A DNA stretch of 64,000 bases, taken from positions 62,001-126,000 of the forward strand of contig NZ_JACIEJ010000011.1 in NCBI RefSeq assembly GCF_014196795.1, given 5' to 3'. The translations under genes and the position numbers were made by a program. A model generated the notes under the pieces. It was given only the letters and a program-made list of their open reading frames with translations, did no database searches and had not been told where the DNA came from. Positions 35,472 through 45,068 of this stretch are shown here, piece by piece. This DNA is from Sagittula marina (GTDB lineage: Bacteria; Pseudomonadota; Alphaproteobacteria; Rhodobacterales; Rhodobacteraceae). Each line of letters opens with the position of its first letter. Position 1 is the stretch's first letter.

Positions 35472-35548
35472 TGGTAGGCCCGGAGGGACTCGAACCCCCA
35501 ACCAAGGCGTTATGAGCGCCCTGCTCTAACCAGTTGAGCTACAGGCCC
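35472..35548 (-). tRNA. tRNA-Ile2 (CAU anticodon, lysidine type)
   Basis: A 77-base cloverleaf including encoded CCA. D-stem GCTC/GAGC, anticodon stem GGGCG/CGCCT with loop CTCATAA (anticodon CAT), T-stem GGGGG/CCCTC with TTCGAGT. The body around the anticodon (GAGCAGG...CTCATAA...TTGGT) resembles the minor isoleucine tRNA modified by TilS rather than elongator or initiator Met. The acceptor stem closes with G1-U72 and has U6-G67, both wobble pairs, which is unusual. Confidence 0.88.
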
Positions 35549-35908: not shown

Positions 35909-37315
35909 TTACCCGAAGATGCGCTGTGCGGAGAGGAGAAGTGCCGCACTGACGAAAACAAAGGCCGTGACGCCAGCTGTGACCCGGAGGGCGGCGTTGA
36001 TCTGACCACGGCGCAGGTCACGGGCTATGTGGCTGAGAACGGCATTGTCCGTGATATGCGCCTCGGTCGGCTGCGCCGCCATGAGGGCGACCGCGTCCTG
36101 CGTGTGCTGCGAGGCGGCGGTCTGCCAATGCACAAAGCCCCATATGACATGAACGAAGGTCGGCACGAGGGTCGTGGCGCACATGATCCAGAGCGCCATG
36201 CCTTGGGACCAATCCTGCCGGGCGTCGGCCCAATAGGCGCGCCAGTCGAGCGGCAGGGTTTCGGGCGAGAGGTTGGCCCAGAGGTCAAGGCTGTAACGCA
36301 GGGTGAAGAGAAGCAGAGCGAGGCAGATGAGGCCGAAGATCAGGTCAAGGACGACGCGGGACACCAGCCACCAAGCCGAGCGGACCTGGCGGCTGGCGGC
36401 GGTCAGGAAGCCGCGCGTGACGTTGAATGAAAGGTAGTCCGCGAAAGCATTGAGGAGGGGAAGAAGGAGCCAGACAAATGGGATGAGCGCGGCTTGTTGT
36501 AGATCACCGTCAACGGCACCGAAACCGAAACCGACACCCACAACGACAACGACAACGGCAACGGCACCGGCAAAGGCAACGGCACTGAAACCGGCACCGG
36601 CACCGACAACGGCACTGAAACCGGCACCGGCAAAGGCAACTACAACGGCAACGACAACGGCACTGAAACCGAAACCGGCACCGACAACGACAACGGCACC
36701 GACAACGGCACCGACAACGGCAACGACAACGGCAACGGCACCTGACAGTCCAATTCCCCACCGGACCGCCTTCGAAAGAAAACCGGTCCGGTGGGGAAGC
36801 CTGTCAAGTCGTTGTTCAGCGAGCAGGCCCCAATGTTCCGACGTTTTTATCGAAAATGGCCAGAACCAAGCGAAGAATGCCATTGCCGCAAGTACCAGAG
36901 CGGCCCGAGACAATCGGCCCGTGAAGCTCTCGACGTCTCGAAAAAGCTCCAGTCCGCCCAGCGTGGTTTGACCGCTGATGATCCAACCAAGGAATGCGCC
37001 GGCGATAGGGTACAGGTATGCGAGGGTCATGCAGGTGGCAAAACTCTTGGCGCTCCAGATGCCGCCCACCCGGCGCGCCAACCAGCCCAACAGACGGCGC
37101 TGGCCGTTGCGATAGCGTTCCGAACGTGTGCAGATGTGGGCGGCGATCTCGGCGTGACGGTAGGCGGGAGAGGCGATGCGCTCTTTAAGTTCCGTTCTTC
37201 GTTCCCCGATGACTTTTGATCTGATGTTCCAAGTCAGACTCAAAATGGCAATCATCAAAGACGACAGGGCTAAGATCGGTGTGAGTGGCGCCAGCCATTC
37301 AAGAATTTCGTCCAT
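35909..37315 (-). CDS. Multi-pass membrane protein with an expanded simple repeat
   Basis: A 468-residue protein with no family that I recognise. It has an N-terminal helix ([17 protein letters not shown]), a charged linker ([15 protein letters not shown]), further helices, then an unusual central stretch of about 85 residues made almost only of Val, Ala, Gly and Phe, encoded by a degenerate hexanucleotide repeat (36510-36750). Three or four more helices and a cytosolic tail follow. The array keeps the frame open and is hydrophobic enough to span the membrane several times. The ATG at 37315 was chosen; a GTG two codons upstream is also possible. Convergent with the DUF2945 gene and divergent from purM. 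Confidence 0.7.
36510..36750. repeat. Degenerate hexanucleotide tandem repeat inside a coding region
   Basis: About 40 consecutive copies of a six-base unit of the form RNCGRC on the plus strand (AACGGC, ACCGAC, ACCGGC and similar). On the coding (minus) strand it reads mostly GTYGYC, giving Val-Ala/Val-Val/Gly-Ala dipeptides. Interspersed GAAACC and AAAGGC units give Phe and Ala. Six-base units preserve the frame. All copies are contiguous without spacers, so it is not a CRISPR array. Confidence 0.9.
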
Positions 37316-37466
37316 TTTCACCCGTCACCCCACGTTCTCCTACCGCCATCATGGTAAACGGATCATTGGCGTCAACCCGGTCCCAGCCCGTTGCAGCCTG
37401 CGTGCCTTTGCGGTAAGCGCGGCGCAACATTTGCGTGACAGCGCCCTCAGCCCTGCGGAGAACACC

Positions 37467-38513
37467 ATGAGCGACGGTAAGAACGGTCTCACTTATGCCC
37501 AGGCGGGCGTGGACATTGATGCGGGCAACGCGCTGGTGGAGCGGATCAAACCCGCCGCAAAGCGCACCAACCGCTCCGGCGTGATGTCCGGCCTTGGCGG
37601 GTTTGGCGCTCTGTTCGACCTGAAAGACGCAGGCTATAGCGATCCGATCCTTGTGGGCGCGACCGACGGCGTGGGCACCAAGCTGCGCATCGCCATCGAC
37701 ACCGGGCTGGTGGACGGCGTGGGCATCGACCTTGTGGCCATGTGCGTGAACGACCTCGTGTGCCAAGGCGCGGAGCCGCTGTTCTTTCTCGATTATTTCG
37801 CCACCGGCAAGCTGGACACCGACACTGCGGCGCGCGTGGTCGAAGGCATCGCAGAGGGCTGCGTGCGGTCCGGTTGTGCGCTGATCGGCGGCGAGACGGC
37901 GGAAATGCCGGGCATGTATCCGGCGGGTGACTTCGACCTTGCGGGCTTTGCCGTGGGCGCGATGGAGCGCGGCGCGGATCTGCCAAAGGGTGTGGCCGAG
38001 GGCGACATCCTGCTTGGCGTGGCATCCAACGGGGTGCACTCCAACGGCTATTCGCTGGTGCGCAAGCTGGTGGAGGTGTCGGGCCTGACCTGGGACAGCG
38101 CCTGCCCGTGGGGCGAGGGCACGCTGGGCGAGGCACTGCTGGCGCCGACCACCTTGTACGTCAAAGGCAGCCTCGCGGCGGTGAAGGCCGGGGCGGTGCA
38201 CGCGCTGGCGCATATCACCGGTGGCGGTCTGACCGAAAACCTGCCGCGTGTTCTGCCCGAAGGCATGGGCGCGGATATCGACCTTGATGCCTGGGAGCTT
38301 CTGCCGATCTTCAAATGGCTGGCGGCGACTGGGAACATCGACGCGTCGGAAATGCTCAAGACGTTCAACTGCGGCATCGGCATGATCGCCGTGGTCACGC
38401 CGGAAAAGGCCGCCGAGGCCCGCGCTGCGCTGACCGAGGCCGGCCATGACGTGCATGAGATCGGCAAGATCACGGCTGGTGAGGGCGTGCGCTACACCGG
38501 CGCGCTGCTCTGA
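37467..38513 (+). CDS. purM: Phosphoribosylformylglycinamidine cyclo-ligase
   Basis: Fifth step of purine synthesis: ATP-dependent closure of FGAM to aminoimidazole ribonucleotide. The 348-residue protein has [18 protein letters not shown] at the start, [32 protein letters not shown] and [11 protein letters not shown], all AIR synthase signatures. The ATG at 37467 follows CGGAGAAC. It is followed after 48 bases by purN in the same direction, the usual purMN pair. Confidence 0.98.
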
Positions 38514-43832: not shown

Positions 43833-45068
43833 CTAAAGACTGTCGGTGTCGCGGCGGTCCGCGCGGGCCTTCAATTTGGGGAGATGTGCGGCGATGGCTT
43901 CCGCCTGCGCCGGTGTAAGAGAGGTGATCCGGGCTGCGTAGGCAAGCAAACCGGGGAAGACGGATTCGGGGCCTTCTTCCTCTGATCGGGAGAAATCAGG
44001 CAGGTGCAGGCTTTGTGATGCGGTGGCCCGAGCAGGCTCCGGCTGGACCGGGGCCGCAGCATCAAGGGTTTCGAATGGCTCCTGCTCCGACGCGTCATCG
44101 AGGTCGACTGGCGCCGGTGCGTCCGCAAGCCGTGGCGCAGGTTCGGGGTCTTCCACATGCGGCGGCTCGGACTCGGGTGCGTCGGCAAGCAGTGGTTCAG
44201 GCTCGGGCGTGTCGTCGTGCAGGGTCTCGACCGGGTCAGGTTCCGAAACTGGATCGCTGTCATGGACCACCACGTCTTCGATCTCTGGCGTGTCACCGGT
44301 ATCCTGTGCGAGAATTTCCGGAAGAGGCGCAAGAATCGTCTCGTCGGGATCGTCGGCCAGCGCGCCGAGCGGCTCGACCGTTTCCGGATGCGATTCGCCG
44401 TCGTCCCAGTCTGTCATATCGTCGAGAACGGCGTCGTCGTCGCTGGCGGCGGCTTCCGGCATGTCGAAAGCAAAGATCGTTTGGTCAGTGTCAGCCATCG
44501 CTTCTTTATCCTCATCGACGGGCGCAGGGGCGACATCCGCGTCGAACGCTTTGGGCGACGGATCAGACATGTCCGGCGCGATGGGCTGAACATCTGCGTC
44601 TGCTGCGACCTCGGGCTGCGCGCTGTGCTGATCATCTGGGGCGGTGTCATCCTCCGCCACCTCGGCATCATCCGGGGACAGATCGGTATCGTTCTGCGGC
44701 GCCACGTCGGGTTCGCGGCGGAAGGCAACCACGGAATCACGCGGGTCTTCTACGGCCTCGATGAAGGGCGCGTCGGCGATCTCTTCCTCGGGGTCGACGG
44801 GGGAGGACAGGGACGCGACGTGGCGCACACCCTGTTCGCGCAAGACTTTTTGGACGCCCTTGATGGTCATCCCGTCGTCGTGAAGCAACTTCTTGATTCC
44901 GCCCAGCAATTCCATGTCGCCCGGGCGGTAGTACCGCCGTCCACCGGCGCGTTTGACCGGCTTCACCTGCGTGAACTTACTCTCCCAGAATCGCAGGACA
45001 TGCGCCGGGGTCTCAAGCCATTCGGACACTTCCGAAATGGTGCGAAACGCGTCAGGTGATTTGGGCAT
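43833..45068 (-). CDS. MerR-family regulator with a long acidic tail
   Basis: A 411-residue protein. Residues 1-80 are a MerR-type winged helix ([58 protein letters not shown]). The remaining 330 residues are low-complexity, rich in Asp, Glu, Pro and Ala (repeated [20 protein letters not shown] type segments), ending in a conserved-looking helix ([34 protein letters not shown]). Most MerR proteins have a short coiled-coil effector domain instead. It follows ihfA, the usual neighbour in Rhodobacterales, 12 bases after its stop. Confidence 0.9.

Follow-up and report, generated by a model that had tools for sequence, protein, structure and literature searches.

Hexanucleotide arrays coding for Val/Ala/Gly/Phe stretches recur in an unnamed family of predicted membrane proteins

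The window analysed here, a stretch of 64,000 nucleotides of Sagittula marina DNA, holds a tandem array of six-base units. As had been proposed for this DNA (hereafter, the original prediction), the array builds, in whole codons, a hydrophobic stretch in a predicted multi-pass membrane protein. Going beyond that prediction, we find that the array is a recurrent feature of a protein family for which the searched libraries offer no name, and that its codon dialects appear to be largely inherited along the family tree. The reading that we prefer, with a probability of about 70%, is that the membrane region is maintained by in-frame turnover of the repeat, with selection keeping it hydrophobic, and that some copies are decaying towards ordinary sequence. 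If this is true, the family is a natural example of membrane-protein sequence made by six-base tandem duplication, with possible stages visible across relatives, and it bears on the origin of transmembrane segments and on the length variation that a membrane protein tolerates.

The hexanucleotide array of the window

The array lies at positions 36512-36745 on the minus strand, at the same location as the arrays of relatives. It consists of 39 units, mostly of the form [GT][CT]C[GTA][GT]T, which code for 78 residues (30 Val, 20 Ala, 16 Gly, 8 Phe and 4 Ser). The repeat predicted, of about 40 hexamers with a Val/Ala/Gly/Phe composition, is therefore real, and only its length of about 85 residues was set too high. 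All 39 units stand in tandem inside the minus-strand ORF 35909-37321 and keep its frame. Ten unit types occur, led by GCCGTT (12 units), GCCGGT (6), GTCGTT (5) and GTCGGT (5). Of the 39 units, 36 have C at the third position and all have T at the sixth; positions 2 and 5 are split near-evenly.

The array is the top 6-periodic place of the 64 kb. In a scan of 240-base windows moved in steps of 20, the lag-6 identity was 0.73, against a mean of 0.29 (sd 0.04) for the whole stretch. When the array's own codons were shuffled (5000 times), the lag-6 identity fell to 0.515 (sd 0.030), with a maximum of 0.623. Tandem Repeats Finder (TRF) reported the array at period 6 and also at period 30. An assembly artefact is unlikely, because arrays are present in three single-contig assemblies (G048, G104 and G398); array lengths taken from draft genomes may be wrong.

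The 470-amino acid membrane protein

The gene that carries the array (35909-37321, minus strand) codes for a predicted multi-pass membrane protein of 470 amino acids, as judged from the ORF, which has a GTG start and an ATG two codons in, from a helical structural model and from relatives. Alignments and pLDDT block means delimit an N-terminal part (residues 1-192; 36746-37321, minus strand) with a conserved AYxYPxxxAxxGW segment. The C-terminal domain (residues 271-470; 35912-36511, minus strand) carries P288, N291, D295, S298, D326, T384, T388 and H391, which are invariant or at least 90% conserved in a 29-member alignment. This domain is probably the working part of the protein. Several of its conserved residues are polar and lie within predicted helices, from which a transporter- or channel-like role may be guessed.

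The model of the window protein, built with 9 aligned sequences, is helical almost throughout. Block means of pLDDT were 69-89 for residues 41-150 and 71-90 for residues 281-460, and the N-terminal part was lower at both ends. Residues 182-249 and 260-274, which make up most of the array, stayed under a pLDDT of 50; the array is modelled, with low confidence, as about three helices. The positive-inside rule, applied by eye, suggests an odd number of membrane crossings for it. The Pseudorhodobacter relative L022, which has the shortest array of its clade (GCC/NNT, see below), modelled better (pTM 0.72), with its array placed, again at low confidence, within one helix (residues 179-214; block pLDDT about 59-66).

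Searches of the window protein against Pfam, NCBIfam and PADLOC gave no match up to E 1, and against PHROG only insignificant ones (E 0.19 and 0.27). With the C-terminal domains of 29 members, only single-member matches (E 0.001-0.01) were obtained in Pfam and NCBIfam, and none up to E 0.01 in PADLOC. A role as an anti-phage defence gene was rejected on these PADLOC results. No convincing match to a known fold was found when two whole-protein models were compared with the PDB (best Foldseek E 0.055; best Z 6.6, with an rmsd of 5.7 over 150 residues) and one with a viral library; the best hit of a profile search of PDB sequences had an E of 0.74.

Family membership and distribution

Merged searches gave 48 distinct ORFs that match the family profile. 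With the whole protein as query, matches were found in 13 of 394 genomes of the taxonomic family, the window's own included. A profile of the C-terminal domain matched in 24 of 390 genomes of the order, 10 of 385 of the class and 8 of 398 of the phylum, in genome draws that overlap. A search of contigs gave 8 loci, among them loci in records labelled Paracoccus haematequi, Maliponia aquimaris, Shimia, Pseudorhodobacter and Roseicyclus mahoneyensis; a first contig scan with the window protein as single query had returned 17 pattern-matching stretches and no relative. The distribution is patchy. The gene is present in one of four genomes of the window's genus, the other three giving no match, and in 1 of 11 and 1 of 4 genomes of two other genera. 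L104 and L106 each lie at the end of a different contig and probably belong together as pieces of a single gene.

In one array-free clade (L079 and L084-L086) an N-terminal helix-turn-helix appears to be fused to the membrane part. L079 scored HTH_3 (E 2e-06) in a Pfam scan of ten full-length relatives, and L084, L085 and L086 appear, judged by look, to have a helix-turn-helix at the same end. These four proteins are possibly membrane-bound regulators. Directly before another array-free relative, L023, there is a 495-amino acid ORF of many short repeats (767-2251 of that locus), which we take to resemble MORN repeats.

The array gene sits between a tRNA-Met gene (35472-35548, minus strand) and a gene at 37467-38513 on the plus strand, which we take from its sequence to be purM and which also lies beside several relatives. 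Genes of the window stretch recur next to relatives in other genera (L112, L113, L115, L116 and L145). In G001, of the same genus, tRNA-Met is found ~0.3 kb from purM with no array-family gene between them. Because neighbours are shared across genera, and because G001 has the two flanking genes alone, the pattern points to inheritance with repeated loss. The neighbourhood is conserved within subclades; across subclades no partner gene recurred in 34 fetched regions and part of the window, in which genes were called by a crude script.

A mobile element was also considered and rejected. The neighbours look chromosomal and are conserved as described above, and relatives were found on neither plasmids, phages nor viral contigs: tblastn gave no match on plasmids for the window protein, L024 or L083, nor on phages for L083, and viral contigs searched with alignment A1 of the family held no relative.

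Several copies of the gene are damaged. In G221 the gene is split (L006/L014); its N-terminal half enters the array in the Arg/Cys frame and its C-terminal half reads the Val/Ala frame, so that a frameshift, real or due to a sequencing error, must lie just before the array. In G281 (L009/L016) the N-terminal part is joined in frame to the C-terminal domain, and the array and its surrounding helices are missing. L011 and L012 are fragments. Since several copies (L006, L009, L011 and L012) are broken or cut, the gene looks dispensable.

Arrays across the family

A hydrophobic hexamer array precedes the conserved C-terminal domain in 30 of the 48 family ORFs, so that arrays of the Val/Ala/Gly/Phe type do occur in distant relatives, at the same place and in the same reading. 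Their lengths range from 22 to 130 residues, as delimited by a script that called arrays partly on hydrophobic content, with a cut-off of its own choice; the value for L102 is a lower bound, as a contig edge lies at its start. Length, which by the original prediction could vary between strains, differs widely among species, and all the change observed is between species with about 35% of residues in common outside the arrays (in the GCC/NNT clade).

Ten full-length members (L023, L077, L079, L080, L084, L085, L086, L097, L098 and L103) have non-repeat sequence at that place, and therefore the array is not needed for the family. The 8 other ORFs without an array (L009, L075, L081, L093-L096 and L104) are cut, short or deleted there. 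Two genomes, G891 and G933, have one array copy and one array-free copy each (L090/L098 and L089/L097, respectively), and the two copies of each genome group together on a starred branch of the tree. L090 and L098 are neighbours on one G891 contig, with a 129-residue array in the former and non-repeat membrane sequence at the same place in the latter. The family appears to range from nearly pure arrays (L024) through mixed (the window and L003) and degenerate ones (L004 and L021) to ordinary sequence (L097 and L098).

Third-base periodicity was measured in the 100 residues before the C-terminal domain and compared with synonymous-codon shuffles; for want of sequence in that region, the test leaves out 2 ORFs with an array and 7 without. 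It was elevated in 26 of 28 array members (z 2.6-9.4) and borderline in L091 and L074 (z 1.7 and 0.8). Of 11 array-free members, ten did not exceed a z of 0.6, and L023 kept a weak signal (z 2.6). For 5 of the 30 arrays (L003, L005, L024, L072 and L083), none of 200 hexamer shuffles reached the length of the internal exact repeats. The excess had a p under 0.05 in 12 arrays and was not significant in 18, the window's among them (p 0.095).

The substitutions inside the arrays were also classified. Among one-step variants, polar changes numbered 8, with 28.3 expected from opportunity (nominal binomial P about 1e-6); silent changes numbered 53 (43.6 expected) and hydrophobic ones 74 (62.8 expected). 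A further 29 variants differed by more than one step. The choice of arrays partly by hydrophobicity biases the polar count, and the deficit is only supporting evidence for selection.

In G1094 (L102) the contig begins inside the array, and in G1054 (L104/L106) two contigs end within the gene shortly after it. Draft assemblies may break at arrays and so conceal further members.

Proposed in-frame turnover of the membrane region

In the reading that we favour, the array would encode a transmembrane region in the membrane proteins of a single-gene family. Slipped-strand mispairing or unequal exchange would duplicate units in tandem or delete them, always in frame, so that this region would grow and shrink. 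Its length would move in whole dipeptides, and the units would be homogenised by the same turnover. Selection would remove polar residues and keep the alternation of small residues (Ala with Val, Phe or Gly), which may pack as Ala/Gly-rich helices. Over long times some arrays might turn into ordinary membrane sequence, or might form anew from it. The array would then serve as a length-tolerant membrane filler or packing region beside the C-terminal domain.

Glycine-zipper and small-xxx-small packing of helices depends on the spacing of small residues along the helix. A small residue at every second position of the array gives a similar AxxxA-like spacing, with putative packing; unlike the glycine zipper, the arrays reach up to 130 residues, are hexamer-coded and belong to a large membrane protein. 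The mutL gene of Salmonella and Escherichia coli has three GCTGGC units coding LALALA, whose copy number changes by slipped-strand mispairing, and the loss of one unit makes this DNA-repair protein defective (PMC2955026). As in mutL, in-frame hexanucleotide repeats code for a hydrophobic dipeptide repeat and a change by whole units keeps the frame; the present arrays differ from the three identical units described there for a repair protein in having tens of mixed units, in coding for a membrane region and in their widely differing lengths among relatives. Like the prokaryotic low-complexity regions surveyed in PMC6821194, the array is a conserved low-complexity stretch in a bacterial protein. 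In that survey alanine and glycine are reported as enriched, and residues that are aromatic or hydrophobic (M, I, L, V) as strongly depleted, whereas the array is rich in Val and has Phe. Within open PMC articles, as far as their accessible sections go, no description of such arrays was found.

Slippage might also act alone. A neutral satellite, in which slippage makes the arrays, selection does no more than remove membrane-breaking ones, and length and units have no function, is conceivable and in our view rather improbable. It would fit the spread of lengths from 22 to 130 residues, in which neither steps in general nor steps of whole helix passes were obvious by eye, and it would fit the array-free members and the decayed copies. 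Against it, no second family of Val/Ala membrane arrays was found in the 22 fetched of 58 other genomes with similar DNA. The persistence of codon dialects, described next, also speaks against it.

Codon dialects and silent sites

In most arrays Ala is coded mainly by one of GCC, GCA or GCT, and its partners (Val, Phe, Gly and Ile) mainly share a third base. The 30 arrays comprise 11 of GCC/NNT, 10 of GCA/NNC, 5 of GCT/NNC and 2 of GCC/NNA dialect, and two single cases. The dialect often differs from the gene's own codon bias: Ala is GCT in 58 of 59 codons inside the L090 array vs 3 of 58 outside, and GCA in 28 of 28 inside the L072 array vs 3 of 66 outside. For the window, GCC accounts for 20 of 20 Ala codons in the array vs 27 of 52 outside, where it is also the commonest Ala codon.

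The dialects were placed on a tree of 45 rows (L009, L104 and L106 were left out), in which 19 of 42 inner branches are open. All dialect labels together required 10 changes, against a shuffled mean of 24.8. The 11 GCC/NNT rows required a single change, as they did in 70% of bootstrap trees (support 68/87); GCA/NNC required 4 changes and array absence 8. GCT/NNC required 4 changes for its 5 rows and is not clustered (66 of 500 shuffles were as low). These results suggest that dialects are largely inherited along the family tree.

Within the arrays, agreement at a lag of two codons was 0.67, 0.62 and 0.83 for codon positions 1, 2 and 3 (1872 comparisons), against 0.28, 0.28 and 0.33 downstream in the same genes (6672 comparisons), and the third position was the most uniform in 22 of 30 arrays. 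Homogenisation explains the uniformity within one array. Between genomes, the 11 members of the GCC/NNT clade share 35% identity outside the arrays. At their conserved four-fold sites outside the arrays the third base is shared in 0.38 of cases (0.30 expected by composition), and their array third-base make-up agrees at 0.72 (Ala) and 0.64 (Val/Gly), the outside figures being from aligned sites and the array figures from composition. The corresponding values are 0.36 outside and 0.74 for array Ala in the GCA/NNC set, and 0.34 and 0.79 in the GCT/NNC set. The dialects thus seem to be common to genomes whose other silent sites are near saturation.

Neutral homogenisation leaves the substitution rate unchanged, and by itself it is not expected to hold a dialect constant as silent sites elsewhere saturate. 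The uniform, shared silent sites are a testable puzzle in this respect. Because the persistence of dialects across lineages is left unexplained by neutral homogenisation, a constraint at the DNA level is the main rival to our reading. It would hold that the hexamer DNA itself is selected, its silent sites being kept for slippage-proneness or for a 6-base register, so that membrane length can be tuned; differing third bases in the Ala and partner codons would hinder 3-base slips. The distribution of dialects on the tree, the silent-site figures of the GCC/NNT clade and the uniformity of third positions are all as this constraint would have them. The scatter of GCT/NNC is not, since it implies that dialects change or arise repeatedly, and neither is the persistence of degenerate arrays (L004, L005 and L021); moreover, the inside and outside figures differ in kind, as stated above. 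Overall, we regard selection on the hexamer DNA as unlikely. Its extended form, in which silent bases are conserved family-wide because the repeat must stay a slippage-prone, 6-base-registered template, an inherited device that lengthens and shortens the membrane region and a source of new membrane segments that diverge into ordinary sequence, is doubtful. Horizontal exchange of arrays between lineages may also have spread dialects.

RNA folding was analyzed as a further cause. When 16 possible codings were ranked by folding averaged over 22 arrays, the four dialects found in more than one array all fell within the 7 weakest-folding, which would again fit selection on the nucleic acid. Nevertheless, the two weakest-folding codings are unused, and on single arrays the rank of the native dialect spans the full range of 1 to 16 (10 for the window and 16 for L101). 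With these counter-examples, avoidance of RNA structure as the cause of dialects is only suggestive.

Switching and other reading frames

A phase-variable locus, in which repeat changes switch the protein on or off, would also place a tandem repeat inside a gene, but it is highly improbable here: slippage by whole units of six bases leaves the frame intact, and the sole frameshift found (L006) lies just before the array. Well-known contingency loci switch expression via frameshifts or promoter spacing, and the frame-keeping unit sets the array apart from them. What it has in common with simple-sequence-repeat contingency loci (for example PMC2651432 and PMC4235727) is an intragenic repeat tract in which slippage is expected.

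The original prediction also pointed to other frames. Four of the six frames of the window array are indeed open (V/A/G/F, R/C, T/A/P and N/G/T), the R/C and N/G/T frames stopping at the array edge, and the remaining two are interrupted by 3 and 1 stops. A meaning for the frames other than V/A/G/F was not supported, as their products would differ among dialects. The other open frames look like a by-product, because a stop-free 6-base repeat would yield them.

DNA similar to the array, searched with one dialect only, was found in 66 of 394 genomes, and in 8 of these the match is at the family gene. Of the remaining 58 genomes, 22 had a locus retrieved, and none of these loci carries a gene of the family. 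In 17 of 21 non-family loci read, an open frame of Gly/Asn or Gly/Asp type lies on the strand opposite the Val/Ala reading; in five of the 17 (L045, L046, L050, L054 and L060) the Val/Ala-type frame is longer and its codon-position signal weaker. In the window's own genome, a search with the window array gave only short further stretches, the next match being a 32-base place. A relative's array matched a second place of 98 bases (78% match) on another contig, where the coding-like frame is of Gly/Asn/Lys type and lies on the opposite strand. Within the matches read, the window array is the sole Val/Ala/Gly/Phe array found in its genome.

These loci and the four open frames would be in keeping with an array that codes on the opposite strand or in another frame, as Thr/Ala/Pro, Arg/Cys or Gly/Asn repeats. 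This is extremely improbable, since the hydrophobic frame is open in all 30 arrays and continuous into the conserved C-terminal domain, and since the dialects would give differing products in the other frames. A Gly/Asn- or Gly/Asp-rich repeat protein was likewise rejected for the window array, as at this locus the Val/Ala/Gly/Phe frame lies in an ORF common to relatives. Within what was examined (22 of the 58 genomes), the membrane use of Val/Ala/Gly/Phe arrays looks special to this family.

Elsewhere in the window, a 30-base repeat of 3.1 copies is found at 44116-44207, within the span of a 411-amino acid minus-strand ORF.
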